Below, in pieces: positions 1 through 16,631 of a DNA stretch of 30,890 nucleotides (within the stretch, counting starts at the first letter, position 1; each line of letters starts with the position of its first letter). Under the pieces are notes generated by a model. That model saw only the letters and a program-made list of their open reading frames with translations. It was not told the origin of the DNA and did not search any database. The position numbers and the translations under genes are program-made. Source of the DNA: a virus; IMG/VR virus record IMGVR_UViG_3300048111_000139, positions 1 through 30,890 of that record; one strand, given 5' to 3'.

Positions 1-798
1 ATGGATTTATTCATGGACACTACGACAGCGCTTGAGAATGCGACTGATCTACTATTACAAGCTAATAATAGATACGCGAAGATTGCTGACAGATTAACTA
101 GTATTGAAAATGTTATTCTAGGTACTGCGCAAGCTGCACAATTAGAAGCAAGAATAAAAGAATTAGAAGATGACTTTACAGCTTCTTCATTACAATTACA
201 AGATTCAGATGCACTATTAACTTTAATTAATAATGCTCATGAAAAACTTAACCAATTAATAGATGGTACAATACCAGTAGAATTACAATATAATACAGAT
301 GTAATATTTTCAGGTAAAGGTACTACGGTTGATAAATCAATAGCTGGTAAAATTAAAATTAATAATGATGTTGAAGGGTATGTAGTATCTGATTTATATA
401 AATGGGATATTGCTTCTAAAATCACAACAGGTGTTTTAAACTCATCAAACTTATTCGATAATTCACAGGCTAATCAATATGGTGTATGGTCTAAATTAAA
501 CCTTTACACTAATAGATTAAGTCTAAATAACATATTAAACAACGAGCCACTAAATAGTAGCCTAGATATATACATTGATGATTCTACCAACGGATGGAAG
601 AAAGGTCAAGTATTTAAAATAGCGATAAATACTATTGATGTAAACGGTAACAACATAAAGGTTTTAACTAATAAATCTGGAGGTTGGCAAAACATCGTGG
701 ACATAGACCCATCACAGTTAATAACGACTAAACCTTACATTGAATTGGTTTGTATAGATCCAATCAACTATGTATTTGAAGTAGATATTTTAAGATAA
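1..798 (+). CDS. Hypothetical virion-associated protein with N-terminal coiled coil
   Basis: I do not recognise this 265-residue protein. Residues 1-90 are helical and rich in Ala, Leu, Glu and Gln, as in a coiled coil. The remainder looks beta-rich, with many Asn, Thr and Ile residues and no catalytic motif. It ends one base before the start of the 1220-aa structural gene, so the two are surely co-transcribed, and the context points to a tail or baseplate component. The frame is open to the window edge, so the ATG at base 1 may be the true start or an internal Met; a second ATG lies at base 13. The role is inferred from context alone. Confidence 0.7.
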   Translation: MDLFMDTTTALENATDLLLQANNRYAKIADRLTSIENVILGTAQAAQLEARIKELEDDFTASSLQLQDSDALLTLINNAHEKLNQLIDGTIPVELQYNTDVIFSGKGTTVDKSIAGKIKINNDVEGYVVSDLYKWDIASKITTGVLNSSNLFDNSQANQYGVWSKLNLYTNRLSLNNILNNEPLNSSLDIYIDDSTNGWKKGQVFKIAINTIDVNGNNIKVLTNKSGGWQNIVDIDPSQLITTKPYIELVCIDPINYVFEVDILR

Positions 799-799
799 T

Positions 800-3700
800 A
801 TGAACACTAACAATTCCATATCTAATTCCTTAAAGAAGCTTTTAGAAATTAATACTAATTCTCTAAAAACATTTGAAAGAATCAACGAAGCAGTAACTAC
901 TAATGCGAAATCTATTCCATTAGAGATACTAACAGACGAAGGGACTAAAATAGTATCAGTTCCTGGATTTGGTTATATGAAGCAAGAGCTAGAAAGATTA
1001 GATAGTAATCTTAAAGCACTAGCTGGATTAGGTAAGGGTAGTACAAAAGTGAAATTACCAGATGGTACTTTTCAAAACATTATTACTACTTCATTAAAGA
1101 CACCGGCAAATGATATTACTGCATTAGCCAGACCTACTGCATTCTCGTCTAAAGCAAACTATTTTGCTGAAGACTTTTTAAACCCGATGTTAACTACTTC
1201 GGTAGATGTAAGTGGTCAAATACCAAATGATACAGAAAGGATTCTTGTTAAAAGAATTTTATTCGATGGAACAAATCAAGTTGCTGTAGATTTCTTTAAC
1301 GAGAATTACAGAGACCAAGATGGCATCGATTACTTAACGGCAATTAGAGATATTGTCAATAACAATATAGCATATACTCTTGATGAAGAGATGAGAGATA
1401 TGCCTTACAGAACTACACAATATACTGGAAGATTTGATGTTCTTTCAATTTCTAATTCTAAAAGAGAAGTTATTGAAAATGGCAACACGGTAAAACAGTC
1501 TATTAAATTATATACATTAGATGGTTTAACATACTCAGATAATACTAAAGATTTAGATCAGACTGAATTATTACGCGTAGGAGATCAATTAATGGTGACT
1601 GGCGGTTCTAAAAACACTAGGTATATAATTGACAAGTTAGATGCTTCAACTAGACAGGTAGAGCTTAGATTAGTCGAAGGATATGAGTCAATTAAAATAG
1701 GCGGAGGTACTTTATCAATCTATAAATCAGAAGATAACAATTTAAGTATTGAGGTTCCTGTAGGATTTGATGAAAGAATATTGATGTTTGTAAAAGCAAT
1801 TGATCCTGAATCAAAAATCTTAGCTGAGAAATGGTCTCCAGGTGCTGCGTTCTATTCAAACGACTTAGAAGTATTACAAGAAGATGGTAGTATTATTTTC
1901 TTATCAGAATTCTATAAAGAGAATGTAGCTGATTTTGGTAAGTTTATCACTTCTATTAAAGAGGATAATATTCCTCCGGCAACAGTTGGTGTTACACCAG
2001 ATGCTCCGGAATTAAATGGTGAGAACTTTAAAGTAGTTCAAATCAATAAGCATTTAACTGAAAACGATGCTGCTGATAAAATTAAGAAATTATCTGCTGA
2101 TAAAATATCTGTACAAGAGGCTATTAAAAAGCTAGACGAAACGATTACTAAAAAGAGATCGGTTATTGCTAGTACTAAATACGCATCTCAAGTACAAAAA
2201 GATAAAGATAAAAATGAGTTAATAGCCTTAATCGAAGAAAGAGCTTCTGAGGCAAAATTATATAACTCTATTGTAACGCAAATACAGTCGTTATCATCTT
2301 CTTCAAATGCACAGAAGATAAATCCTAAATATAGAGTTAGAGGTTTTTGGAAAGTGCCTACAGCAAAACAAGTTGCTGATACATTAGATCAAGAGGTTGT
2401 ACAGTTTATTGTACAATATAGATACTTATCAACATCTGGTAAAGCTGCAGAGGCTTCACAACTTAAGTTTACGGTTGATGGTAGAGATAAATCTGCTATC
2501 TTCTCAAACTGGAATGAAAAGAAAGGTAAAATAAGACAAAGAGCAAAAACTCTTAATAGTGACGGCACGATTGCTAAAAAGTTTACATGGCAAGATAGTA
2601 AGATTGAAGATGGACAAGAAATTAACTTTAACCAATTAGACATTGCTATTAAACAAGGTGAACTAGTAGAAATTAGAGTTAAATCTGTTTCTGAGGCTGG
2701 ATTCCCTGCTAACCCAATAATTTCTGATTGGTCAGAACCGGTAACTATTTCATTCCCGGAAGAAGAGATTGATACAACCGATGTTGCTGCAGTAGTTCAA
2801 GTTAATACTGCTGAATTAGCAAAAGTACAAATTACGGAAGAATTAACTGGACAGGGTGTATTTACACACGTTAGTGATGCGTTTACAGCTAATGAAAATT
2901 ATTATGCTCACGTTGCAACTAATATTGCATCAGGGTTCTTATCTCCAGAACAAAAGCCAATATCTGTATATGACAAGATAGCGGAGCTTGAAGCTCAGAT
3001 CGCAGGTCTTAAAGGTACTGTTGAAGCTGAAGTTGGAGAGCTAGTTGTTAAGATCGTATCGGAAGATGGAACAGTAACAAATATTAATAAAGATACTACG
3101 ACTCAATTATTTGCTGGGTATTATGTTGATGAGGTTGCAGATTTAACAGTAAGAAAAGGACATATTGTTACTAAAACTTTTAAACTACAATTAGAGAATA
3201 GCAAATCAACTAAATTAGAATTAGTATCAAGACTGGTAGGTGATAGATCAAAACCCGTTTATAGATCTATTAATGCAAATACTGATGCATCTTCAAATAA
3301 GTTTGGAATCGAAAACGAAACAAACGCTACAAACTCAGCAGTTGATACTAAAGTTCAAAGAGATAATTATTATTTAGAAGAAGGTAACTACGATTTAGTT
3401 CCTGTTCAATATCAAAATATTTCATCTGAAGACTTCGAAAAAACTTCAGATGCTCCTTATCAATCTGCACAGAGAAGAGGTCAATTTATCTATAGTAGAT
3501 ATATGGATATTGCAAACCAAAATCCACATTACATGACATCTGCGATTGGAAATGAAGGTGATGGTAATATTGTTAATTATGAACATGGTCTTTCAAATGC
3601 AGGATCAGGTAGCGGTAATGGTGAATTTGGATCAAGTGCTCCTGCAACAGATGATAATAATAACTTTATATGGTCTGGTGATTTTAACAATAGTGATGCT

Positions 3701-4462
3701 TCTGGAGCTGGTGAATGGAGTAAAGATAAAGTAAATGTATCTCCTATTAGTGCAGTAACAGTTAATGACTATAACTCAGGATTATTTGTACATAAAGATC
3801 ATCCTAATTTAGCTAACTTATATGATGGCGCAATCGCGGGCAACTCTGATCTTACTAGTTATTCATTTATGAGTGTCGTAGATTCTATGATCTTTTCAAT
3901 GCCTAAAACTGCAACATTAGCAACTGGTGGAACTTTATTTAGTATTTTTGGTTCTGGTGCTGATAGTAATAATCAAGTTCAGGCTAAACAACAAATAGCA
4001 TATCACCAAGGAAGAGATTTATTTAGTAACGGCGTAGCAGAAAGACCTATTAAAATGTCTTTCGAAGCAAATGACCAATATATGTTAGGTGGTAAATCAT
4101 GTGGAGCATTCTTATTTATGTCTCCTGTAAATGCAGATACTCTTAAGGTAAGCGGTGAAACTAAAAGATCTGCTAAACAGATTAAAGCTAGAAAGGACAA
4201 TGAGTCAAATGCGGTTTCTGTAGATATTGTATTCCAATTTAGAATGACAGATTACTTCGGTAATGAAGATTCAATTGATACTGGAAGAGTTGGTGGATTT
4301 GCTAGACTTGCATACAATAACTTAACTTATACTAAGAAAATCGGCTTAGACATTTTTGACAAATACGGCGAGCAATTTTCGTTTGACTTAGAAGTATTCG
4401 CAAAGTATGGTCCAAAAGGAAGGAATTTAAATTCAGTTAAGGCAGCCAGATTATTTAGATAA
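800..4462 (+). CDS. Large virion structural protein with FN3-like domain (tail/baseplate candidate)
   Basis: This 1220-residue protein has no family I can name with certainty. Residues 1-100 are helical, followed by mixed alpha/beta. A strongly charged coiled coil lies at about 421-503, rich in Lys, Glu and Asp. A fibronectin-III-like part spans about 507-653, with a WKVP start and an ISDWSEPVTISFP end. A short second coiled coil lies at about 723-754. A flexible Gly/Ser/Asn/Asp-rich segment at about 916-973 precedes a C-terminal globular part with aromatic beta strands. It has no signal peptide or membrane segment. It starts 1 base after the previous stop and is followed by a 70-base hairpin-containing leader and the giant gene. 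Size, modularity and place suggest a tail fibre or baseplate part; this is inference. Confidence 0.8.
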   Translation: MNTNNSISNSLKKLLEINTNSLKTFERINEAVTTNAKSIPLEILTDEGTKIVSVPGFGYMKQELERLDSNLKALAGLGKGSTKVKLPDGTFQNIITTSLKTPANDITALARPTAFSSKANYFAEDFLNPMLTTSVDVSGQIPNDTERILVKRILFDGTNQVAVDFFNENYRDQDGIDYLTAIRDIVNNNIAYTLDEEMRDMPYRTTQYTGRFDVLSISNSKREVIENGNTVKQSIKLYTLDGLTYSDNTKDLDQTELLRVGDQLMVTGGSKNTRYIIDKLDASTRQVELRLVEGYESIKIGGGTLSIYKSEDNNLSIEVPVGFDERILMFVKAIDPESKILAEKWSPGAAFYSNDLEVLQEDGSIIFLSEFYKENVADFGKFITSIKEDNIPPATVGVTPDAPELNGENFKVVQINKHLTENDAADKIKKLSADKISVQEAIKKLDETITKKRSVIASTKYASQVQKDKDKNELIALIEERASEAKLYNSIVTQIQSLSSSSNAQKINPKYRVRGFWKVPTAKQVADTLDQEVVQFIVQYRYLSTSGKAAEASQLKFTVDGRDKSAIFSNWNEKKGKIRQRAKTLNSDGTIAKKFTWQDSKIEDGQEINFNQLDIAIKQGELVEIRVKSVSEAGFPANPIISDWSEPVTISFPEEEIDTTDVAAVVQVNTAELAKVQITEELTGQGVFTHVSDAFTANENYYAHVATNIASGFLSPEQKPISVYDKIAELEAQIAGLKGTVEAEVGELVVKIVSEDGTVTNINKDTTTQLFAGYYVDEVADLTVRKGHIVTKTFKLQLENSKSTKLELVSRLVGDRSKPVYRSINANTDASSNKFGIENETNATNSAVDTKVQRDNYYLEEGNYDLVPVQYQNISSEDFEKTSDAPYQSAQRRGQFIYSRYMDIANQNPHYMTSAIGNEGDGNIVNYEHGLSNAGSGSGNGEFGSSAPATDDNNNFIWSGDFNNSDASGAGEWSKDKVNVSPISAVTVNDYNSGLFVHKDHPNLANLYDGAIAGNSDLTSYSFMSVVDSMIFSMPKTATLATGGTLFSIFGSGADSNNQVQAKQQIAYHQGRDLFSNGVAERPIKMSFEANDQYMLGGKSCGAFLFMSPVNADTLKVSGETKRSAKQIKARKDNESNAVSVDIVFQFRMTDYFGNEDSIDTGRVGGFARLAYNNLTYTKKIGLDIFDKYGEQFSFDLEVFAKYGPKGRNLNSVKAARLFR

Positions 4463-4511
4463 TATATAACCTAATGTTAGGTGAATATATAATAGAGGAG
4501 TACATTCTCTA
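4463..4511 (+). promoter_or_regulatory. Two consecutive hairpins in the leader of the giant gene
   Basis: Hairpin 1 pairs TATATA-ACCTAA (4463-4474) with TTAGGT (4477-4482) and TATATA (4486-4491), with a GAA bulge at 4483-4485. Hairpin 2 pairs TAGAGGA (4493-4499) with TTCTCTA (4505-4511) around the loop GTACA, including one G-T pair. They fill most of the 70 bases between the 1220-aa gene and the ATG at 4533. No T-run follows, so a classical intrinsic terminator is unlikely. RNA processing, mRNA stability or control of the 9-kb gene are more plausible roles. The structure is seen; the role is inferred. Confidence 0.5.
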
Positions 4512-4532
4512 GGAAAAAGATATTAATAATTA

Positions 4533-7500
4533 ATGGCTAATTACCAATTTAGAAATACAAGTTATTCAGATTACGACTCGGCAGTTGATGCTGCTAGGTT
4601 AAACCCTAAACCTACAACTGGATTAGAAGATGTTAACGCAGCAAGTACTAATACATCTGAACCCGTTTACCAAGGCGTAGACCAGAATCAAACGTTTGAT
4701 GGTCAAGATCAATTCTGGATTGAAGACGATGGTCGTCAAATATGGCAAGTTGCTGCTGACGGTGGCATACTTAGTGTCCAGTCAATGCCGGCATGGGATT
4801 GTAGTGATCCGGATGATTTTGGATATATTGGTGCTAATCCAAGTGGATTGGGAGAGAATACCGAAGGAGATTTAATTACAATTACATACGGTACTAACGT
4901 TAAGGGTGGTAATATGCCATCACTGATTGAAGTTAGATTAAATGATGCTACGGGCCAGGTTGTACAAGACGCAACAACATCCACGGGCTTCGTTTATGGT
5001 GAAAACACGTATCGTGTTAAATTTTCACTACCAAGCGGTTGGAGCGGTGGAGATGTAGATGGTAATAAAGCATGTGTTCAAACTAATGTAACTGTAGTAC
5101 AGAATGACCCGCTATATGATTGTGATGTAGCTGGACCGACGATTAATTCTGGAACACACGGAGATCCTGTAGTGGTTCAATGGGCAGTAGCTCCTGCTGA
5201 TAATGATTGGGTAGTAACTCCAAACACTTTAATTCCAGGTAGTGCTTATACTATTACAGGAATCGAAGTTCCTGCTGGATATTCAAATAATGGCGGCGCA
5301 GCTATTCAATGTCAAATTGACGCAAATGAGGTAACTGTCGCGCAAACCACATTAGCACAGTTTGACTGTAGCGATGCTCAAATCGTTATTGCAGACGGAC
5401 CCCCAGGTGCAAATGTAGAAGCTAATACAACGGTCGCTGCAGGAGTAACAATATCTTCTATAAGCCCTGCTGTATTTGATGCAGCAACTGGAAGCAGAGA
5501 CTACGATGTAGTCATTAACATACCTAGTAGTGGATATAATAATTCAGGAGGACTATTATCATGTCCTACGCCCGGTGTTACTGTCGCAGTAGCAAAAACA
5601 ATTAGTCTTAATAATACTAATGATCTTGCATTTGATTCAACTGGTAATCCTATTCAAACTAAAATAGTTACCATTGAGGGTAATGCAACTGGGTTTAGCA
5701 CAGGAACTCATATTCAATATACAGCGGGTAGTAACTCTTGGCTTAATGTTTCGTTAGATAACTTTACTACTAGTGGTGGTAATTTACAGTTTTCAGCGAA
5801 CGCATACACAGGAGCACAACCTAGGAGTGTTGAAGTTCAATTAGAACACCCAGAAGATGATTCAATACAAACAACAGCGTTTACAATTACGCAATCAGCT
5901 GGTAATCAACCACCAATTGGAAGTAATTTAAGTAGACAAATTACATGGCAGTCTTCAGTAGCTGCTCTAGATTTAGATTTTAAGAGCCCAGTGGCAGCTA
6001 ATTGGACTGGAACTGCAATTAATGATCTTGAAGACGGTGATAACCCGGATGTAATAATAACTGATATTAGTGGATTAACCGTAGGTAATTTTAGCGCTAC
6101 ATTAAAAGATAGTTCAGATAGTTCATCTACAACTATTACTTCTAACGATCTTCCATATACATTAGTCGGACCTGCTAGAACTATAAAGTTAACACCTTAT
6201 AGTGAGTTAGGTGAAACGCAAGCTGGGAATATTAACTTTAAATATAAAGTAAAAGATTCCGGAGATTTAGAATCTCCAGAATATACTGTAACGTTATTAG
6301 TTTCACCTCCTGCAAATGAAGCACCGAACGCGATTGATAAGTCAATAAGTATTGTAGGTGCAGGAAATGGAGATACTACTGACCCGTTTGCGTTTGGTAG
6401 CGCTGGTTTAGCATCAGATGATAATGACGCACCTGCTGCTTTAATCTACAAGTGGGTAGATAATGCAAATGGTGCCAATGCAGTACTATTTACTGCTGGT
6501 GATAGAACTGGACTTCACGGTACGTTTACTGAAGCCAATGGTGTTTTACAATATACATATACCGGGAATACACTAACTCCAAATGATGATGATGTAGTAG
6601 ATGAGTTTTGGTTTACGGCTACTGATAGCGAAGGTGAATCTTCAGGTGGTGCTAGAATATTTGTAACTATGACGGCTGCTCTAAACACACCTCCGGTCAT
6701 AACGATTAACAATAACGCTAATACTGATACAATCAGTTTTAATGCACTTCAATACGAAGCAGTCACTCCAAATGTACCTATTTCTGCTACTGATGGAGAG
6801 GGACATACCCTTACATGGTCAGCAGAGTGGGATGCTAGTAGTAATAATTCGGTAAACGAAGAAAAGGGTAATTTTAGCATTAATGAAAACAATGGTGTTT
6901 GGTTCTATGAATCAGGCGATTGGGATATGCAACCAAACACGCCTTATGATACCTACTACATTATTAAAGTAAGAGATGAATTTGGTGGAGAAGACTCGTA
7001 TACACTACAATTAACAATAACAGGTGTATCATTTATTGGTGGAACTACTATATCTGCAAACGGGAAACTTACTTCGGCATCTGCATGTGATGAGAATAGA
7101 CCAACAGATGTTTTTTTAGATGCAGATGTTGCACAAAGTGTAAGCTTATTAGAAGCTGGTCATTTCCTTTACACTGAAAATACTTTACAAGATTCAGATA
7201 AATTTATACCCGGATCTGATGGTCCATGGCATTCTATTCAACAAGATGTTGCAGGCAATGTTGTAATAAGGGTGGTTAAGTTAGCGGCGGACGGTACAAT
7301 AGAACAAATATTTGATTGTGCACAGACTCTTGATTATGCATGGCCTATTGATATTAATTACTCTACTAATTCAAATGACCTATGTCAACCAGGACCCCTA
7401 GATTATACAGTAACTCAGGCTACTGTTTATCAAAACGTAATTAACCCGGATGATGCAGCTGTATCTTTACAAGCTGTAATAAATGCAGGAGGTCAATTAT

Positions 7501-10500
7501 TTACTAGTCAATATTATGCTAATCAACCTGAGTATCGAAATGATCCGACTAATATTGCAAACACGTATGCGCCGGCATCTTTATGTGTGGCTCCTGGATT
7601 CTATAATGATGATAATAGAGATGCGGATCCTAATCAGATAATTTATTATGAATTTACTACAAACGCAGAAGGCCAAGGTGTATGGAATCCTTCTAGCGTA
7701 AACGACACCCAAACAGTATACGAATGGAATTGTCCTATAGAGATTGAATATGGAACATATAAATTTAATGCGTTTTACAGTGAGTTAAATAGAGAATCTG
7801 TAGATGCTATATGTTCATTAGAAGATGATGACTTAACTAAAGTAGATTTATATGTTAGATTAGATCTTGCAACCATGGAGGGCTCAACTCCATTTTTTAA
7901 TACACATTACGGTGCATTAGAATATGTGATGAAAAATCAGGTTTTAGTATATAAGACTGAAGCTGATGCTAACTCTGTTAACTATAATGGGTTATGGGAA
8001 ACCACAGTGTTTGTTGCAATTAAGTCAGGAGTTGATTTAACTGAAACAGATCCAAACAGCTATATACCTGGAGTCGAAAGAAAGTTTGCTATATGGGATA
8101 ATGAAAATGATTCCGGATACGTTGATGGTATTCCGGCTAATAATTTTACGTATTCTTGGGTAGGCGCAGATGCAACTACGCTAAATTTAGAATATTCAAC
8201 AACTAATACTATATTAGGTAATTGTGTAGCTAACTTTGAACAACCAGACGGACATGAGAATTTCTGTTTAGGCCTTCCTAATAACGATTGTACGACTTCT
8301 GACCTAGACACATCTAGAACTAATGTATTTTATGCCTTTTATTCTTGCGTGTCTAAGATTGAGGGTGGTGATCCATACTGGAACCTTTATATAGTAGATG
8401 GGTTACATACGTTTGCTACTAATTCTACTTCATATATTAAAAAATTAATAGACGTAATAGAGCCTGGTGTGAATGCAGGAGTACGTTTAAAATTAAGTGG
8501 TGATACCATGTTGGAATGTGTAGCACTACAACATAAAATATTTGCAGTTAACTATAATGATGCTAGTACAATTGCATTAAATTTACCAGAGTATGGCAGT
8601 GATGTTAGAGTGGTAGAAATAAACCCGGTTGAATTAGGTTTTGCTAGTAACGCAGTAATTGAATATAGAGAGAACTGTATCGACTGTATACTTGATACTG
8701 GTGACGCAAACACATTTACATTAGATTCTATTAACGATGCTGATGTAATTAATAGATCACTTCCTAATTTTAATTTAGAGAAGAACTATGAGTTAGACAA
8801 TTTATCTAAACCTTTATTAAGAACAAATCCTAAATTATCCACTAATGCTAAGTTAGTTGTTAATAGTACTGATGCTATGTATATCGAGTCTATTGATGCT
8901 ACGAAAGAGTTAGCGTCAGTTGAATATAAGAAATGGCCTGTTAATAAATTAGGTAAATGGTCTTATGATTTAGCAAAATTCTTTAATAACAATAAGACTC
9001 CATCTGATATAGTATACTTTAGTAAATCTAGATTCTCAGACTTTACAGTACAAGAATCTTTTGAAAAACAAATAGAAGAAGATTACCATTATGGTACAAC
9101 ATATAACTATTCTAAACTACATAACGAAGACTTTAGAATGTTAGCTCCTATTTGGCTAGATAAAAATATTCCTTCTAATTTTGTAATATTTAGAGTTAGT
9201 GATCCAGCTGCAGTGCTAGACTTTGATACACAAAGTAACTTTAATAATATTAATGAAATTTTAAAGAATAGTGAATTAATTAAAACATTTGATTTAACTA
9301 GAGATTCTAACATAGGTACATATCTTAGAAATCATGTACAATCTGAATTATTTCCAAGCAATCCAATTAGTGTAAACTTTTCAGAGAATGAAAGAACAAA
9401 TTTTAATGGTATTGACTTAGTAAGAGGTGGGTTTACAAATAAAGGTGAATACTTATTTGATGATTTTGTAAAACAAGACCAGACTATTATTTCTGAAAAT
9501 GAATTAATTACTGCAGGTTTTGAAAGAAATAAATTAGCGTGTGCAAATCTTATTAACTTAGAGTTTTTGTTTGATGATGATGGAGCAGATGACTATGCTG
9601 TAAATAGATATTTCGGATTATATGTAAATGATGTTGATTCAGGGTATGGTACTTTAGAGTCTGCTAATAATGGATTACTTAAATTTAAAACATTAAACTC
9701 TTATATTAACGAAGATTCAGAATCAGCAATACCACCTGTTAAACTAATGTCGTCTACTCCTACTTTAGGATATGCTCATGTTTCTAATAATTTTTACAAG
9801 ATTTCAACAGACTCGTATTACGATACATCAAATTTAGAATTACGTGTTGAAGATTCTACTAACTTAATTTCTAATGAAATTAAACTAGCGGAAGTTGGAA
9901 CATCTATTGATATAATTAAGAACACACTTGCTGAAAGTGATTTTGTTAAACTTACTATTAATGAGACTCCTGCTAATAATGATAGAATATCTATATTCCC
10001 TTCTAAAGAACAGGATTATAGAATTAAGGTTGTAAGATATAATCCGGGAGATTTATATAATTTATCGCTTACTCTTAATACGTTAGATCAAAGCTCTAAT
10101 ACATGGAATAATGTAACTTATACGTTTGGGTTAGAGTTAAAAGATACTATGGAGCAAACTATATCTCATTTTATTGATTCAAACCCTGGTATATTTGATG
10201 CTAATTTAACTTTTAAAGCAGATGGTAATGATTTCTTAATATATGAGAAAAAAGTTACACTTAACTCAATTAATCCAATAATAGAACCTGTTGGTTCTAA
10301 CAATATATCAATCGCTAGAGTTGAATATACTCAAGTACCTTTTGATTTAGAAAACAATATGTATTTTGGATCCGATGCATTACCTGCTGGACATTTTAAT
10401 ACTACTGCGTTTTCAACACAGGGTACTAATGCTGAAATAGCACAGGCTTTAACAAAATCTATTAACTCAAAAGATAATGGGTTTACCGCACTAACATACG

Positions 10501-13500
10501 ATGGAGCTGATCATCTTTATATAAAAAATGATGTGGTAGGTTACAGGTTAATGCAGTCCGGAATTGCAGTACCTAATGGTAACGCTAATGACTGGGTACA
10601 TGTCGACAGCGCTAATGAAATTGAATATACTGAAAACAATAAACTTAGATTACAACTTACAGGTAGTACTTCTAATACATTTAGATTTAGTAAGATTTAT
10701 TTCTTTAACGGTGGAAATTCAGCAGGTAAATCAGTATTAGCGAGTTTAGATTCTGTTGCGGATATTAATGTTAACGATTATTTAGAAACTAGTTCTATAG
10801 GAGTTTACAATAAAGTAATTGATATTGTAGATGATATTGAAAGATTACCTTTAGAATACAAGAAACTAATTTTAGAAAAAACTAACACATTAGAAGACGG
10901 AGAAGTAAATGTATTTGCAGACAACTTAGTAAGGCTAGGTTTATTCTCAGCATTTGATATTCATGATATGAATTTTGATTTCTATGATACTGCTAATTCA
11001 GAACTAAAAGAATTACAATGGGAAGTAGCTAATAATATTAACTATGAACCTGAAATAGATAATCAAAGTGACATATATCCATTTGGAGATAGAGGTAGTT
11101 CAGATTATTTAAAAGCACCAGTAAGTTATTTTACTGGATTAAGTGATGTGTTAGAAGAGGAAAGAACTGATGAGGCAAACGAAAAGCAGGTACTAAGCGA
11201 GTATGATAGATTGCAAGAAAACTATTTAAAAGAGTATGCAATTCAATCTAGAGTTGTGCCTACAATTAATAAGTGGGTTTTAAAAGATACTTTAACCGTT
11301 AGAGAACAACCATATTATTTAAATGCTAATGAGGCATTTGGTAGATCTAACTTCTCGGCTGATCTTTCTGTTCGTGGAAGAAATAGAGTTGGTATGACCC
11401 ATGAGTGGTTTTATATTAATAACTTACCAAAGTATTTAAAAGAAAATCAAGGGGATTATACTAATCCAGAATATAGATTAAATGAATCATTTAGTTATCT
11501 TAACTTCATGGATGGTATTGAAATGTCTCCGGCAATGTTTAAGGATATTAACTATGATTATTTTGATAGATTCTTTGTTACTGAAGGATTTGAAACTTCG
11601 GGTGATAACAAATATAAGACATTTGTAAAAACTAATAGACAAAAGAAATACACGTTAGTAAATGGTGGTAATGATACTGCATTTGCAGATACAATATTTA
11701 AAGGTCTAAAAGTAATATTTAAAAACAGAAAAGAGTTTAACGCTTCAAGTCCAGTGGATTTCGTTAAATCTTCTGAATTTAATGGATATAGGTTTAGTAC
11801 TGTATTAAACGTAAAAACGTCTCAAGATTCTAATGGAATTGAGTATGAGGTTATACAAAATAAGAAATTTAAATACGTTGTATTCTTTATCTCTTTAAGC
11901 ATAGATGATTTATGGGCAGATCAAACTCTAACCAGAAAACTATTGTATGAATTAAATCATTCTTTAGTATGGAATAATGAGGAAGGTACTTTTAAATACT
12001 CTGATGTTAAAATTGATGGACATTTAGATTTAACAGGTGCTAATTTTACTCATCCGGATGGTGATGATTATTTAGTAATAAATGGACTAGAACACGCGGA
12101 TGGTAATCCACCTCAGTTCCTAGAACAAATTAATAAAAATACTGATGATGAATTTGGATCTTTAATCGTAGAGTATACTACATTATTTGGAACTAAAGTA
12201 ATAGAACTTGATATTTCTAACGTAGAAAGTCAAACACAAATAACTCTTGCTAGTCAGCCAAAAGATCTTTCAAACGGCGGTATTGCAACTGATTTAAGTG
12301 ACTTGCCTAGTTATGTACAATATAATGCTAGATATACGTATAAGGGCGGTGGTGTTAATGCATACAAATATATTTTAGAGTCTTTAGGTGCACAAGATAT
12401 GGCGGATATGCTATTAAGGAATCCAGATAATATTAAATATTCTACTGTAGAGTTAGATGGTAGTATCGGTTTAAGTAAATTTATTATCTTATTAGAAGAT
12501 GGTGTTGAATTTATTAAAAAGGCTGAGTTAGACACTAATGTGGATGATGATAAACCAGAATCTTTTAAATTATCTTCAGGTAATATTGGGTATAATTTAG
12601 GACTTACTAGAGTTTACTACCCATTCTTAATTAGACATAATGGAGGATATACTATTGACACAACACCGGTTGTAACTTTTACAGACGTGTATACTCACAT
12701 GAAAACAAATACTCTTCAAAATACTTCCGATATTATTGAATTAGAATTAGAAGAACAAATGTATAAACACTCTTTAACTAGTACAAAAGAGATTCAATTA
12801 GCTAAAGACTATTATAGAAGATATAATAGATGTGGTGTTGCATTTAACTTAGGATTTATTTATGATGGAGGTGCTCATGATGCTCAATGGGGTATTATTA
12901 AAAACCATTTCTATAGAAAAGTAAATGAATTTAAGTCTAGCGGTGTTATTAAACTATCAGTATCTTCTGATAAACCACCATTATACCCATTAATAGGAGA
13001 GATTGCTATTGATAAGAAAGATGTGAATGTATTCAAATCTTCATGGGATAAAAACTATTATACTAGATCTTTATCCGGTGGGATTAACGAAGAAGTTCCT
13101 GGTACATTTGAAACTAAAGAGGAAAGATCGTATTTAGCTTCTACTATTATGAAGATAAAAGACAGCTACACGATGTTGAACTTTGAAGTTGACCGAGTTA
13201 AAACAGAAGGAGAGCTAGATGATATTTTAGCTAATTCTACAAATAAGACAGATATTGTATTATTTGAAGATAAAAAAAGAGTTGTAATGGACTTTTACAT
13301 AGACTTTACAATTAATAAAAAATTAAGTGGTGATGGTGTTTTAGATACTATTAAGAAATATGTATTAGCTGTAAATTCAGCTGCTGACAAGACAACATTA
13401 ACTGATGATGCACAGCTTTATATTAGAAAGAATTTGATAAACGCTTTTAATATAGACCAGATTAAACTTTATACTAAAAGATTTAAAGGTAGCGATTCTA

Positions 13501-13670
13501 CTTTAGAAATTGTAGATACAATCAGTAATTTAGATGATAATAACTATAATTCAGATCAAAACTTTGAATTTTCATCACACGAACAAAAGCCCCTTAATTT
13601 TAGGTTGATATATAATAAAAGATTAGGTTATTCTTATAGAATTAGACCTATGGTAAAAATAACGTCATAA
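4533..13670 (+). CDS. Giant modular virion protein: Ig-like, BACON and cadherin-like N-half fused to large virion domain
   Basis: This is a 3045-residue protein. After an N-terminal leader (1-85) come three repeats that each start with an aromatic-Asp-Cys motif (Cys90, Cys197, Cys279) and carry a second Cys near the end (Cys181, Cys260, Cys344). A BACON domain follows at about 356-456 (SWLNVS, then strands ending TAFTITQSAG). Cadherin-like or Ig-like domains run at about 458-830, with NQPPIG, NEAPNA and NTPPVI linkers. Further Cys-ended beta modules occupy about 835-1400. From about 1420 to the end lies a long Asn/Asp-rich domain beginning LLRTNPKLSTNAKLVV, which I take to be the older virion part. 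BACON is a Bacteroidota carbohydrate- or mucin-associated fold also known from crAss-like phage tail proteins. The protein probably forms a tail fibre or receptor-binding baseplate appendage. The N-half is visibly richer in G+C than the C-half. Confidence 0.85.
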   Translation: MANYQFRNTSYSDYDSAVDAARLNPKPTTGLEDVNAASTNTSEPVYQGVDQNQTFDGQDQFWIEDDGRQIWQVAADGGILSVQSMPAWDCSDPDDFGYIGANPSGLGENTEGDLITITYGTNVKGGNMPSLIEVRLNDATGQVVQDATTSTGFVYGENTYRVKFSLPSGWSGGDVDGNKACVQTNVTVVQNDPLYDCDVAGPTINSGTHGDPVVVQWAVAPADNDWVVTPNTLIPGSAYTITGIEVPAGYSNNGGAAIQCQIDANEVTVAQTTLAQFDCSDAQIVIADGPPGANVEANTTVAAGVTISSISPAVFDAATGSRDYDVVINIPSSGYNNSGGLLSCPTPGVTVAVAKTISLNNTNDLAFDSTGNPIQTKIVTIEGNATGFSTGTHIQYTAGSNSWLNVSLDNFTTSGGNLQFSANAYTGAQPRSVEVQLEHPEDDSIQTTAFTITQSAGNQPPIGSNLSRQITWQSSVAALDLDFKSPVAANWTGTAINDLEDGDNPDVIITDISGLTVGNFSATLKDSSDSSSTTITSNDLPYTLVGPARTIKLTPYSELGETQAGNINFKYKVKDSGDLESPEYTVTLLVSPPANEAPNAIDKSISIVGAGNGDTTDPFAFGSAGLASDDNDAPAALIYKWVDNANGANAVLFTAGDRTGLHGTFTEANGVLQYTYTGNTLTPNDDDVVDEFWFTATDSEGESSGGARIFVTMTAALNTPPVITINNNANTDTISFNALQYEAVTPNVPISATDGEGHTLTWSAEWDASSNNSVNEEKGNFSINENNGVWFYESGDWDMQPNTPYDTYYIIKVRDEFGGEDSYTLQLTITGVSFIGGTTISANGKLTSASACDENRPTDVFLDADVAQSVSLLEAGHFLYTENTLQDSDKFIPGSDGPWHSIQQDVAGNVVIRVVKLAADGTIEQIFDCAQTLDYAWPIDINYSTNSNDLCQPGPLDYTVTQATVYQNVINPDDAAVSLQAVINAGGQLFTSQYYANQPEYRNDPTNIANTYAPASLCVAPGFYNDDNRDADPNQIIYYEFTTNAEGQGVWNPSSVNDTQTVYEWNCPIEIEYGTYKFNAFYSELNRESVDAICSLEDDDLTKVDLYVRLDLATMEGSTPFFNTHYGALEYVMKNQVLVYKTEADANSVNYNGLWETTVFVAIKSGVDLTETDPNSYIPGVERKFAIWDNENDSGYVDGIPANNFTYSWVGADATTLNLEYSTTNTILGNCVANFEQPDGHENFCLGLPNNDCTTSDLDTSRTNVFYAFYSCVSKIEGGDPYWNLYIVDGLHTFATNSTSYIKKLIDVIEPGVNAGVRLKLSGDTMLECVALQHKIFAVNYNDASTIALNLPEYGSDVRVVEINPVELGFASNAVIEYRENCIDCILDTGDANTFTLDSINDADVINRSLPNFNLEKNYELDNLSKPLLRTNPKLSTNAKLVVNSTDAMYIESIDATKELASVEYKKWPVNKLGKWSYDLAKFFNNNKTPSDIVYFSKSRFSDFTVQESFEKQIEEDYHYGTTYNYSKLHNEDFRMLAPIWLDKNIPSNFVIFRVSDPAAVLDFDTQSNFNNINEILKNSELIKTFDLTRDSNIGTYLRNHVQSELFPSNPISVNFSENERTNFNGIDLVRGGFTNKGEYLFDDFVKQDQTIISENELITAGFERNKLACANLINLEFLFDDDGADDYAVNRYFGLYVNDVDSGYGTLESANNGLLKFKTLNSYINEDSESAIPPVKLMSSTPTLGYAHVSNNFYKISTDSYYDTSNLELRVEDSTNLISNEIKLAEVGTSIDIIKNTLAESDFVKLTINETPANNDRISIFPSKEQDYRIKVVRYNPGDLYNLSLTLNTLDQSSNTWNNVTYTFGLELKDTMEQTISHFIDSNPGIFDANLTFKADGNDFLIYEKKVTLNSINPIIEPVGSNNISIARVEYTQVPFDLENNMYFGSDALPAGHFNTTAFSTQGTNAEIAQALTKSINSKDNGFTALTYDGADHLYIKNDVVGYRLMQSGIAVPNGNANDWVHVDSANEIEYTENNKLRLQLTGSTSNTFRFSKIYFFNGGNSAGKSVLASLDSVADINVNDYLETSSIGVYNKVIDIVDDIERLPLEYKKLILEKTNTLEDGEVNVFADNLVRLGLFSAFDIHDMNFDFYDTANSELKELQWEVANNINYEPEIDNQSDIYPFGDRGSSDYLKAPVSYFTGLSDVLEEERTDEANEKQVLSEYDRLQENYLKEYAIQSRVVPTINKWVLKDTLTVREQPYYLNANEAFGRSNFSADLSVRGRNRVGMTHEWFYINNLPKYLKENQGDYTNPEYRLNESFSYLNFMDGIEMSPAMFKDINYDYFDRFFVTEGFETSGDNKYKTFVKTNRQKKYTLVNGGNDTAFADTIFKGLKVIFKNRKEFNASSPVDFVKSSEFNGYRFSTVLNVKTSQDSNGIEYEVIQNKKFKYVVFFISLSIDDLWADQTLTRKLLYELNHSLVWNNEEGTFKYSDVKIDGHLDLTGANFTHPDGDDYLVINGLEHADGNPPQFLEQINKNTDDEFGSLIVEYTTLFGTKVIELDISNVESQTQITLASQPKDLSNGGIATDLSDLPSYVQYNARYTYKGGGVNAYKYILESLGAQDMADMLLRNPDNIKYSTVELDGSIGLSKFIILLEDGVEFIKKAELDTNVDDDKPESFKLSSGNIGYNLGLTRVYYPFLIRHNGGYTIDTTPVVTFTDVYTHMKTNTLQNTSDIIELELEEQMYKHSLTSTKEIQLAKDYYRRYNRCGVAFNLGFIYDGGAHDAQWGIIKNHFYRKVNEFKSSGVIKLSVSSDKPPLYPLIGEIAIDKKDVNVFKSSWDKNYYTRSLSGGINEEVPGTFETKEERSYLASTIMKIKDSYTMLNFEVDRVKTEGELDDILANSTNKTDIVLFEDKKRVVMDFYIDFTINKKLSGDGVLDTIKKYVLAVNSAADKTTLTDDAQLYIRKNLINAFNIDQIKLYTKRFKGSDSTLEIVDTISNLDDNNYNSDQNFEFSSHEQKPLNFRLIYNKRLGYSYRIRPMVKITS

Positions 13671-13673
13671 GGC

Positions 13674-16631
13674 ATGGCCATCAATATTCAAGAAATACTA
13701 CACCCTAGTGACTCTAACCAAATTAAGTGGGAAAAGGTTAACTATAACTTTGACCAAATTTTAGCAAATGGTGGTGGTCTTAAGGGAAATAAAGGCTCTG
13801 AAGGAGTACAAGGTTCTGTTGGACTTACAGGTCAAAAGGGACAAAAAGGTGATATAGGACCTCAGGGTGAAACTGGAGCAACTTCGTCTAGATGGAAAGT
13901 GATTCCTGTCAGCGAGAACTCTGGTAATGTTAACCAATATGTAATACTTAAACCTAAAGTATCTAATGACGTTTACCATCCAGTAATATTCTTAGGAGAT
14001 CAAGAATTTGATGAAGTTAATGGCCTTGATGGTTTTACAACGTCAAGAGCTACTTTAACTATAGGTAAACATGCAGTAGGCGGACCAAGCCCTTCTCATG
14101 AGCTGCTAACATATTGGCATGGTAGAAGAGGCGATACCACAAATGATATTTCTATTACAATTAGTACTTCTGAACAAACAGACGGTACAACCGATTGGAC
14201 TAGATTTGAATTAAACAAAACACTTGGAATAGATGCTAATGAAGTAGTTGAATATTTCGTAAACCTAGATAAGTATACATTTAAAAATACTAATGTTAGT
14301 TTTGGAGATAATTCTACAGGTAGTGTATTTAGATTACCTGAGACTAATGGTCCTGTTTTAGAAGGCGGAGAGCTTAGATATTTTGGAGATACTTTTTGGG
14401 GTGCTGTTAAAGATTCTAATGGAAATGTTTCATGGAAATCATTCTGTATGTCCCCTTGTGGACAAGGCGGAGGAGATCCTGTAAGTATTAGTATTACACC
14501 TAGTGACGATTTAAGCTTAAATCAATATGGTTACCCAATGGGTAACACAGTTGAGATAAGTCCAAGTGGCAATTTAGAAGTTGATAATCAAGGTGATTTA
14601 TGGAATGGTGAAACAACTACAACAACAACGACGCTAGCAACTACAACAACAACGCTAGCAACTACAACGCTAAGTAAGACTATTGCATTTGGACCAGATA
14701 GTGGTAATTACAATAACATATCTTATGCTGGAGGACAAGGATCAATTGATTATACAACTGGACCAGTAGACGGGCTGATTATTGAAAACGTAAGTGATGT
14801 TACAACACCTGAGTGGATCCAGATTTTAGGTACGATGGGATCTGATAATGAACCTGAACTTACAATGACAATAGAGGCTAATGCTGCAGGTATTAGAAAT
14901 GGGAGTATAATAATTAGACACCCACAACAAAATTCTGCAACAGCAACGTTAAATGTTACACAACAAGCGAATCCAAGTTACGGCGCAGGCTGTACAGACG
15001 CTAATGCTGATAACTACGATCCTAACGCTACGAGTGACGATGGAAGTTGTACATATTGTGCAAACTTTACTGCAATAGAAGTTGAGAAAAATAATCCTAG
15101 CGAATACGGTGGAACAGATGGTAGTTATATAATGACAGCATCGGGCGGTTCTGGAAACTATGATTTTAATGTGTATTTGAAACCTGATGGTATTCAAGCA
15201 AATCCATTTGCATTAGCTGCAGGAGAGTATTACGCGGTTATTGATGATTTGGGCACAAAGCCTAATGGAGACGTTATTGGTTGTACAGATCAAATTGATT
15301 TTACATTAAATAATCCAACAACTACAACTACTACCTCAACGACGACTGCAACACCAACATATACTACTACTTGGACTGCTGGTGAGACGGTAAGTAATGC
15401 AACGGTACATGTTAGTGATAACCCGAGTGCACCAGTAGATAATACTGATACTAGAATAGCAACTGCGGGTGTTAGCGTATCTAGAACTTTTTACATGAGG
15501 CCGACATCAGGTTATCAGTTTACAAGTACTAACCAGGTAAGTGTTTCTGTTTCACAGGGTAGTGCATCAGTAGATTCTATTACAGCTAACGGTAATATTA
15601 AAATTAATGTAACTCATACTACAAATACTTCAAACAATGGCATTGTGGTAACAATAACAGGTGGAGCAGTAAGCTCAGCGCCAGTTTATACTGCTATATC
15701 AGCAAACCCTAGTGGAACTGTAAATGAAGGACAACAAGTTACAGTAAATGTAACTAGTAATAACATACCTAACGGAACACGTGTATGGGTGAATATGAAC
15801 CTTGGACAAGTAACTTACTCAGATGTAACATCAGGCTGGTCTTCGGGCGCAGGCTCTGGTGATTCACCAAGTAATTCTTCTTGGGGTAGTTGGGTAACTA
15901 TGAATGGTAACACAGGTAGTCATACAATAACATTAAAGAATGATGAAATCCTAGAAGGTACTGAAACCCTTGTATTTAGCTTACTATCATACGATGAAGC
16001 TAATAACGCAACAGGGTCTTTACAGACTAGCGTGGATGTATTAGACACGTCATATCCTCAAACGTATACGGTTACGTTTATTAATGGTAATTACGATCAA
16101 TATAGTACGTGTCAACTGACTAGTAATACTAAAACCGCAGTATATGATGCTCCGTCCGTAGGCAAGGCAACGTTTACTACAGTTTGGAATGCAATTTCCA
16201 CAGACCCTGATTATACAGGCTCAGCCGGTGTCTGGTTTAAAATAGTAAGTAGTACTGAACCTGGATTCCTCCATGGAGACGGTACCGCTAATCATTCAGC
16301 TCCAATCACGTCGCAGCCGTGTAGTGGTGTAACTACGACGACAACGACAACGGGCGGCTCAGGTGATGGTTCTGGCTGTGGTGTTTACTATCTAGGTAAC
16401 ACTAATTACACGTTCCCTGTATCATTACAAGGTAATTATGGATGTGGCGGTTCATATATTAGTATCAATTCTACAGGTGCATCGTACCAGACTCCTCAAA
16501 ACACATTCTGTTCTGATCAGCCAATGTCTGTACTGCAGATGAACATAAACCAAGGTTTAGGTAATGGATTTGTATCAGCAGGTACAGGTACTGGATGTGC
16601 ACCGGGAGGTAGCTGGCCAGGAGCATCATAA
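13674..16631 (+). CDS. Collagen-like, poly-Thr-linked modular tail fibre
   Basis: This is a 985-residue virion fibre. Residues 1-34 are an attachment region, followed by 12 perfect G-X-Y triplets (35-70), a trimerising collagen-like stalk common in phage fibres. A beta-rich domain runs to about 305. Poly-Thr linkers lie at about 310-333, 549-566 and 886-893. Between them are a BACON-like domain (about 335-430), a GCTDANADNYDPNATSDDGS motif (about 439-459) as in secreted flavobacterial proteins, and an SprB-like repeat (about 463-545, TDGSYIMTASGGSGNYDF). A Calx-beta-like domain follows at about 673-793 (NEGQQVTVNV, then NDEILEGTETLVFSL). The tail end is rich in Gly and Cys. It starts 3 bases after the giant gene, so the two probably act together in host recognition. 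The receptor is unknown. Exact domain borders are estimates. Confidence 0.85.
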   Translation: MAINIQEILHPSDSNQIKWEKVNYNFDQILANGGGLKGNKGSEGVQGSVGLTGQKGQKGDIGPQGETGATSSRWKVIPVSENSGNVNQYVILKPKVSNDVYHPVIFLGDQEFDEVNGLDGFTTSRATLTIGKHAVGGPSPSHELLTYWHGRRGDTTNDISITISTSEQTDGTTDWTRFELNKTLGIDANEVVEYFVNLDKYTFKNTNVSFGDNSTGSVFRLPETNGPVLEGGELRYFGDTFWGAVKDSNGNVSWKSFCMSPCGQGGGDPVSISITPSDDLSLNQYGYPMGNTVEISPSGNLEVDNQGDLWNGETTTTTTTLATTTTTLATTTLSKTIAFGPDSGNYNNISYAGGQGSIDYTTGPVDGLIIENVSDVTTPEWIQILGTMGSDNEPELTMTIEANAAGIRNGSIIIRHPQQNSATATLNVTQQANPSYGAGCTDANADNYDPNATSDDGSCTYCANFTAIEVEKNNPSEYGGTDGSYIMTASGGSGNYDFNVYLKPDGIQANPFALAAGEYYAVIDDLGTKPNGDVIGCTDQIDFTLNNPTTTTTTSTTTATPTYTTTWTAGETVSNATVHVSDNPSAPVDNTDTRIATAGVSVSRTFYMRPTSGYQFTSTNQVSVSVSQGSASVDSITANGNIKINVTHTTNTSNNGIVVTITGGAVSSAPVYTAISANPSGTVNEGQQVTVNVTSNNIPNGTRVWVNMNLGQVTYSDVTSGWSSGAGSGDSPSNSSWGSWVTMNGNTGSHTITLKNDEILEGTETLVFSLLSYDEANNATGSLQTSVDVLDTSYPQTYTVTFINGNYDQYSTCQLTSNTKTAVYDAPSVGKATFTTVWNAISTDPDYTGSAGVWFKIVSSTEPGFLHGDGTANHSAPITSQPCSGVTTTTTTTGGSGDGSGCGVYYLGNTNYTFPVSLQGNYGCGGSYISINSTGASYQTPQNTFCSDQPMSVLQMNINQGLGNGFVSAGTGTGCAPGGSWPGAS
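14610..14672 (+). repeat. In-frame 21-bp tandem repeat coding for a Thr-rich linker
   Basis: Two full 21-base units (14631-14651 and 14652-14672) share the core ACGCTAGCAACTACAAC, and a partial third unit lies upstream (shared part 14614-14630). Each encodes Thr-Leu-Ala followed by a run of Thr. Because the unit is a multiple of three, gain or loss of copies changes linker length without a frameshift. Confidence 0.8.

Follow-up and report, generated by a model that had tools for sequence, protein, structure and literature searches.

A giant phage protein with a graded N-terminal extension of Ig-like modules and an exchangeable tip

Optional, exchangeable Ig-like modules reportedly decorate otherwise conserved virion proteins of phages, as Fraser et al. 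are said to have described in 2006 (J Mol Biol 359:496). In phage T4, Hoc carries its Ig-like domains outward from a C-terminal anchor on the capsid, while gp37-like tail fibres combine a conserved attachment part with a variable, exchangeable tip. In the jumbo phages of Bacteroidota, most of which are uncultured, host recognition is poorly known. A tail-associated protein with BACON tandem repeats is described for crAssphage, with horizontal transfer and duplication of domains (PMC6949934). The giant protein analysed here resembles each of these proteins in some respects and departs from each in others. It is encoded by an uninterrupted reading frame of 3045 aa (4533..13670, + strand) in the window, i.e. 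the whole stretch of viral DNA analysed, which is an IMG/VR record of 30,890 bases (a 30.9 kb fragment). The frame is intact in other contigs too, e.g. L002 (3046 aa) and L003 (3065 aa).

Like the Ig-decorated structural proteins, the giant protein has β-sandwich modules, as judged from a fold model, on a protein that also exists without them; it differs in that a stack of ~1400 residues lies N-terminal to a large core, is graded in length along the tree, and ends in an exchangeable tip. The likeness to the crAssphage protein lies in the carriers (phages of Bacteroidota), the BACON domain, and the transfer and duplication of domains (PMC6949934), whereas the giant protein has a single BACON domain mixed with cadherin-like and Cys modules, and its core is common to contractile-tailed jumbo phages. 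The C-terminal anchor and N-terminal Ig-like domains of Hoc offer an analogy, although the giant protein is far larger and a search confined to PDB sequences detected no sequence relation, leaving room for one at the level of the fold. Compared with gp37, its polarity appears reversed, with the conserved part C-terminal and the variable tip N-terminal. Homologous cores are found in phrog_31887, in the Tenacibaculum phages pT24 and PTm1, in PAU gp265 and in MA9V-1 ORF15; the pT24, PTm1, PAU and MA9V-1 homologues begin at the LLRTNP domain and lack the extension. New relative to the Ig-decorated and BACON proteins are the polarity, the scale and the resolved series of lengths. No published description of the giant protein was recognised by title or abstract opening, in literature that covers subscription journals thinly.

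In the reading that we consider likely, the C-terminal ~1600 residues are old and anchor the protein in the virion, and an Ig-like stalk of ~1400 residues was added N-terminally, ending in an exchangeable contact tip. The locus provides an ordered series, in which one core occurs with no, short and long extensions, together with a mapped cassette exchange, and thereby opens two matters to testing: the way in which phage adhesins grow, and the part of them that is altered when specificity is swapped between lineages.

Modules of the extension and of the neighbouring fibre

From its outer end inwards, the N-terminal half comprises a tip cassette (residues 1 to ~195, 4533..5118), exchanged between lineages, as its DNA identity pattern shows; two Cys-containing Ig-like repeats (residues 193-269 and 275-353, 5109..5591), recognised by an iterated HMM built here; a BACON domain (residues 387-455, 5691..5897); three cadherin/Ig-like β-sandwich domains (residues 456-832, 5898..7028), taken from the fold model, with the limits between them drawn by eye; proximal Cys modules (residues 833-1395, 7029..8717), delimited with alignment A3 and the HMMs M9 and M10; and a joint (residues 1396-1419, 8718..8789) with the consensus PNF.LE.NY.LDN.S, which borders the core on its N-terminal side (all + strand). 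The preliminary description of this DNA had named BACON and cadherin-like modules. The former stands in part, since the Pfam match in the window (E=0.0047, residues 398-454) falls below the cut-off, while the domain is recognised by an iterated HMM and lies above the Pfam cut-off in the relative L035. The cadherin/Ig-like modules are backed by the fold model and by Big_9 matches above cut-off in the relatives L010 and L049.

The innermost proximal Cys modules are the part commonest among Ig-type relatives, and cysteines number 19 in the N-half and 2 in the C-half. In alignment A3, which has 26 rows and is in part trimmed at the outer end, the rows with Pfam matches at E<=0.01 were those to Big_9 (10), BACON (7), Cadherin_4 (7) and Calx-beta (1). 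An AlphaFold2 model of residues 230-1425 has a mean pLDDT of 80.9 and a pTM of 0.39, i.e. confident domains with a low score for overall arrangement, as expected for beads on a string. The best Foldseek and VIA-align matches of the N-half model are cadherin ectodomains and the tandem RTX adhesin stalk 6xi1, while phmmer searches of the N-half against PDB sequences gave no match up to E=1. At the outer end of the L130 and L149 extensions, where the window has BACON or Cys-Ig modules, inspection by eye found Calx-beta-like stretches and surface-Ig stretches, the latter presumably akin to HYR/DUF5011.

Some of these modules recur in the gene directly downstream, which encodes a collagen-like fibre of 985 aa (13674..16631, + strand; collagen and tail-fibre matches, the Pfam one below cut-off). 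Its residues 369-431 (14778-14966, + strand) form a BACON domain by iterated HMM. By Pfam and iterated HMM, there is one BACON domain in the giant protein and one in the next gene, and no tandem BACON array was found. Iterated HMMs place BACON in the giant proteins of the window's sub-clade and, apart from these, in downstream genes, and a BACON tree (67 columns, with 6 of 29 branches starred) separates the copies in giant proteins from those in downstream genes, 16 distinct ones of each, as two groups with support 83. In L032, L036, L039, L044 and L049, the downstream copy resides in a small gene of its own. Iterated HMMs found no BACON in the giant proteins of L039 and L049 or in the extension ORF of L032, where downstream copies are present, a hint, no more than suggestive, that the neighbouring gene had BACON first. 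The Cys-Ig repeat likewise occurs in the downstream fibre genes of L009, L014, L015, L018 and L026.

The core, its extensions in relatives, and their origin

The conserved C-terminal core (residues 1420-3045, 8790..13667, + strand) contains LLRTNPKL at residues 1428-1435 (8814-8837, + strand), and matches phrog_31887 over residues 1422-1704 (E=2.3e-43; E=1e-41 in the short relative L050). Searches with the C-half found 30 phage records, one of them matching across >80% of the C-half, and at least 76 IMG/VR loci, the 76 being drawn from the best 80 of 103 matching stretches. The N-half had no match among phage records; in IMG/VR it matched 2 loci with a single-sequence query and 68 with an alignment query, many of them on already known contigs. 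The fold model of the core is partly poor (mean pLDDT 64.4), with a best Foldseek match in the PDB at E=8.5e-4 (TM-scores 0.04-0.05) and weak VIA-align matches to one domain (~1827-1933; Z up to 8.4, rmsd 2.7, 89 residues), sheath domains among them. Against a viral structure library, it retrieved the homologues from PTm1, pT24 and PAU (H9NCE2, equated with PAU gp265 on the basis of its length, 1262). Searches of both halves against the sequences of solved structures gave no convincing match (best E 0.06). No function was assigned to the core from these comparisons.

Among 56 distinct closed ORFs, 36 carry an Ig-type extension of 679-1606 residues (among them L007, which in this part does not differ from the window), 6 a TSP3-type extension of 310-362 residues, and 8 none, with the remainder consisting of 4 frame-broken ORFs (L030, L032, L036, L055) and 2 without ATG at the expected start (L076, L077). 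The name TSP3 follows a Pfam match in L048 (E=1.6e-06), and the repeats are visible in L045 and L072. The alignment-based N-half scan added Ig-type members with 486 to 1232 residues. A comparison of relatives for a shorter protein starting near residue 1420, which the preliminary description had proposed, did find such forms: the 8 distinct IMG/VR genes begin 13-16 residues before it. The genes of PAU, pT24, PTm1, MA9V-1, LR756500, LR756501, LR756502 and LR756504 start within ~25 residues of the LLRTNP motif. Extensions are absent from 8 of 10 outgroup loci, the two exceptions being Lak-C1 and Lak-B6, whose extension shows by eye no likeness to the Ig type (no Pfam match in Lak-C1). The relatives hence do not all keep one N-half, but have an Ig-type, TSP3-type or Lak-type extension, or none, at the joint. 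By sequence comparison, this one joint appears to have taken up at least three unrelated kinds of extension, namely TSP3 repeats, the Ig-like stack and the Lak extension.

In Lak-C1 (L082) and Lak-B6 (L087), read in code 15 (TAG = glutamine), the N-terminal extension measures ~740-806 residues and meets the core at the same joint. The ORF from 9980 in L089 (LR756504.1) is an unextended core form of 2458 aa, the other outgroup forms having 1020-1527 aa. A programmed frameshift at the joint was considered for L032, in which the reading frame changes exactly between extension and core (L032:9998-10011), but a sequencing error is likelier, since L030, L036 and L055 are frame-broken elsewhere (L036 not at the joint) and the contigs stem from two neighbouring metagenomes, all four being named from IMGVR 3300046167 and 3300046170.

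In an outgroup-rooted core tree of 45 rows, in which the distant outgroups sit on long branches in unsure order, the four extension labels require 3 changes, which is the minimum; a tree of 51 rows without the distant outgroups requires 2, again the minimum. L076 was labelled ‘none’ because its open frame fits at most ~18 codons before the match, with no ATG there. The Ig class forms one clade with support 100 (25 rows of the 45-row tree, 40 rows of the 51-row tree), and the TSP3 class a single clade nested among unextended genes. The unextended genes, which include every outgroup but Lak, are basal. This bears out the earlier proposal that the N-terminal modules joined an older protein, the short relatives beginning at the LLRTNP domain and branching basally.

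Within the Ig clade, the first branches have extensions of 685-910 and 486 residues and the later ones 877-1606, a series that is not strictly monotone, as L143/L144 (486) branch after the 685-910 members and, inside the window's clade, L010 has a short one of 1037. Over 51 relatives, with near-copies kept and no phylogenetic correction, a higher core identity goes with a larger alignable share of the window's N-half (Spearman 0.93) and with a longer extension (0.84). Alignment to the N-half of the window starts at its residue ~1254-1264 in L038, L147 and L149, at 663 in L049 and at 460 in L010, and covers all of it in L002 and L006. Because alignability also falls with divergence, the length series is the firmer argument. 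Between L004 and L035, whose cores are 91% identical, the outermost ~177 residues are 73% alike and are followed by ~140 extra residues in L035.

The preliminary description had placed a composition break near residue 1400, using hand counts of G+C that are exactly reproduced (28+26+20=74/180 in the N-half, 7+18+16=41/180 in the C-half). The ORF is in two parts by composition (GC 0.377 for residues 1-1419 vs 0.294 for the C-half), and none of 500 shuffles, whether codon-wise or in 50-codon blocks, gave a one-break statistic as strong. The break is real, but the best single GC break lies at codon 1283 (window 8382), and the profile, which is not smooth, is nevertheless graded, GC falling stepwise rather than at one point (0.423 for residues 1-352, 0.359 for 353-456, 0.379 for 457-832, 0.359 for 833-1260, 0.327 for 1261-1419, and 0.28-0.30 in the core). 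The GC gap of 0.083 consists of 0.067 from amino-acid make-up and 0.015 from synonymous choice, and the step is for this reason mainly a signature of protein type. In 45 relatives whose extension measures at least 250 residues, near-copies kept, the gap averages 0.082 (0.026 to 0.160). Synonymous usage differs little between the two halves (chi2/df 1.37, p=0.07), and that of the C-half differs more from the fibre gene (chi2/df 2.01) and the helicase (2.53) than from the N-half. The fibre gene has a GC of 0.394 and a synonymous usage indistinguishable from that of the N-half (chi2/df 0.89), and the composition of the N-half is ordinary for this phage. The suggestion that the break marks foreign DNA is not supported, ~80% of the gap being due to the amino-acid make-up of the Ig-like modules and not to codon usage. 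Foreign DNA was accordingly rejected as the main cause of the GC break, while a small synonymous residual, which breaks at codon 1422, i.e. at the joint (as strong in 6/500 block and 11/500 codon shuffles), remains. A GC step within one gene can reflect amino-acid composition instead of foreign DNA, which calls for caution in similar cases.

Surface proteins of Bacteroidota often contain BACON and bacterial Ig/cadherin-like domains, a circumstance that, together with the residual at codon 1422, favours seeing the N-half as recently imported from a gene for such a protein, with the GC break as donor signature. Such an import is nonetheless improbable, given the largely amino-acid origin of the gap, the mean amino-acid share of 0.98 in the 45 relatives, the presence of two extension module types in a neighbouring phage gene, and the divergence of the extension across a whole clade, which shows that it is not recent as a unit. 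A single scan of genome contigs for a bacterial donor with the N-half alignment, a weak test whose sole pattern lay at the joint, also confirmed no relative, and neither did a likewise weak scan with a core alignment (two patterns). The direction of change could also be turned around, the long form being ancestral and the short relatives having lost their extension; parsimony counts alone cannot separate gain from loss, and squared-change reconstruction gives an intermediate root value (273, not 0, because the method averages). Against loss stand the eight non-Lak outgroups examined, all without extension, the two Lak phages with an unrelated one, the rise of the TSP3 class within an unextended clade, and the need for several independent losses that each ended near the same joint, which together make it very improbable.

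Exchange of the outermost cassette

Over the first ~590 nt of the gene, the window shares 93-96% DNA identity with L006 (and L033), the figures beyond this stretch being 45-78% for what is left of the extension and 79% for the core. Between L006 and its sister L003 the order is inverted: identity is 33-47% over nt 0-600 but reaches 76-97% across the remainder of the extension, and the cores are 90% identical. Site patterns unite L006 with the window at 336 sites and with L003 at 11 over nt 0-600, a count that, in distinction to the identities, is inflated by the barely alignable tip of L003; the corresponding figures are 184 and 1286 over nt 600-4200, and 114 and 325 in the 3000 nt upstream of the gene. 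The right breakpoint lies between +587 and +597 of the L006 CDS, at a domain boundary where the next Cys-Ig repeat starts, and the left one at the start codon or within the leader before it, with 15 sites (window) vs 7 (L003) in the last 150 nt before the start. In the downstream fibre, L006/L033 side for the most part with L003, indicating that the tip of the giant protein was not co-transferred with the fibre. The well-resolved exchange concerns one recipient lineage only (L006 and L033, with near-identical genes). In a second, weaker case, the tips of L014/L016 (residues 1-94) match L024 at 63-64%, with cores at 56%. By these identity patterns, the outermost ~195 residues are a cassette exchangeable between related phages, and it is for these residues that an origin ‘from other phages’, as first suspected, is seen directly, in an exchange between two phage lineages.

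The leader of the giant gene (4463..4532, + strand) contains AATATATAAT at 4484-4493, which includes the motif [GA]ATATATA. This motif precedes the start by 36-57 nt in 53 of 56 distinct giant leaders, with all three extension classes represented. The count left out 5'-open ORFs, starts <90 nt from the locus end, and L030, L032, L036, L055, L076 and L077 together with the copies L007, L078 and L079. The leaders without the motif belong to L119, L138 and L140, the frame-broken contigs of L030, L055 and L036, in which the ORF start is not the true gene start. As a control, the motif was counted before other + strand ORFs (>=150 aa, same loci), where 48 of 310 leaders carry it; inside the window alone it is not over-represented. 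It is possibly a promoter element. Since one leader motif precedes all three classes, the extensions would have been added inside the coding sequence, with the leader retained.

Gene neighbourhood and placement in the virion

The gene upstream of the giant one encodes 1220 aa (800..4462, + strand) and matches phrog_29329 (E=3.4e-153). In L048, L050, L053 and L063, the four relatives read, the next upstream gene has 1174-1212 aa and the order of gene sizes around the giant gene is that of the window; the phrog_29329 match was confirmed in L050, the sole relative checked. Beyond the fibre gene lie a weak Rz-spanin match and, further downstream, replication genes. The baseplate-wedge family phrog_6 was matched in 5 of 5 long contigs of relatives, and a homologue of the MA9V-1 tail sheath in 4 of 5, with no match to the Pfam sheath model PF04984 in any of the five. 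Two relative contigs measure 204,977 and 212,342 bases. In MA9V-1, the core homologue is ORF15, and ORF16, directly downstream, is called a short tail fibre (PMC10537231). The virus is probably large and its host probably a member of the phylum Bacteroidota, by the named relatives, which are phages of Tenacibaculum, Chryseobacterium and Prevotella; Sphingobacterium is given as the host of PAU in the title of a paper cited in PMC10537231.

The gene neighbourhood suggests that the core has long been part of the virion in contractile-tailed jumbo phages of Bacteroidota, where its gene lies close to those for tail/baseplate and fibre proteins. DNA for extracellular β-sandwich modules would have been inserted in frame between the gene start and the LLRTNP domain, and on the outer, N-terminal side additional modules would have come in or taken the place of others, which gave rise to a stalk of ~1400 residues that, in order from the core, comprises proximal Cys modules, three cadherin/Ig-like domains, BACON and Cys-Ig repeats. 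Tips would probably be swapped by homologous recombination, with one crossover in the conserved leader and the other at a repeated Ig boundary. Context, fold and analogy lead us to infer a chain that is fixed in the virion through its core, extends outward as the stalk and meets the host surface with its tip, such that a tip swap may retarget or tune adsorption. The stacking of front modules on an old rear part, with the outermost piece swapped, suggests a growing, exchangeable surface-contact arm, and a role of the N-half modules as host-range determinants, as first supposed, is plausible. The more specific proposal of a reversed-polarity adsorption fibre, which is C-terminally anchored, lengthens at its free N-terminal end and is retargeted by swaps of the ~195-residue tip through recombination at leader and Ig boundary, has in our estimation an even chance of being correct.

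Instead of an exchange, the likeness of the window and L006 tips might reflect slow evolution of a constrained tip, as the 88% protein identity between the tips of the window and L002 could suggest. Such constraint is contradicted by the tips of L003 and L004, sisters of L006, which have 34-54% DNA identity per 150 nt to that of the window, and by L035, whose alignment to the window begins at residue 190; furthermore, the affinity of L006 flips from the window to L003 within 10 nt, and slow evolution is scarcely credible as the explanation. An exchanged tip suggests selection on specificity. This speaks against a different placement, in which the protein is a head or neck whisker or fibre instead of a tail adhesin, and its stalk aids diffusion or polysaccharide binding instead of receptor choice. 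Several observations lend that placement some weight: PTm1, whose homologue has no extension, bears head fibres (PMC7824862); the pT24 homologue lies near portal and DNA-end-protector genes; and epithelial binding increased when Ig-like-domain proteins of phages were displayed on a phage scaffold (PMC13370021). In the window's group, by contrast, a baseplate-wedge match lies ~10 kb upstream and the collagen-like fibre directly downstream, and in MA9V-1 the ‘short tail fiber’ gene adjoins the core homologue downstream. A whisker is on this evidence rather unlikely beside the preferred tail adhesin.

Scans of the window for tRNAs and Rfam families gave no match. Sequence variation extends to both neighbours of the giant gene. 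In the phrog_29329 gene, DNA identity to L006 drops to 65-78% over window positions 3183-4082, vs 84-96% before; this variable stretch lies in the C-terminal part of the protein, the best matching stretch to phrog_29329 being residues 1-812. In the fibre gene, the C-terminal part of the ORF (window ~15320-16520, ~1200 nt) is 88-97% identical to that of L002, while the middle is 51-80% alike between the two, suggesting that the downstream fibre may have an exchangeable C-terminal tip of its own, in the ordinary polarity.
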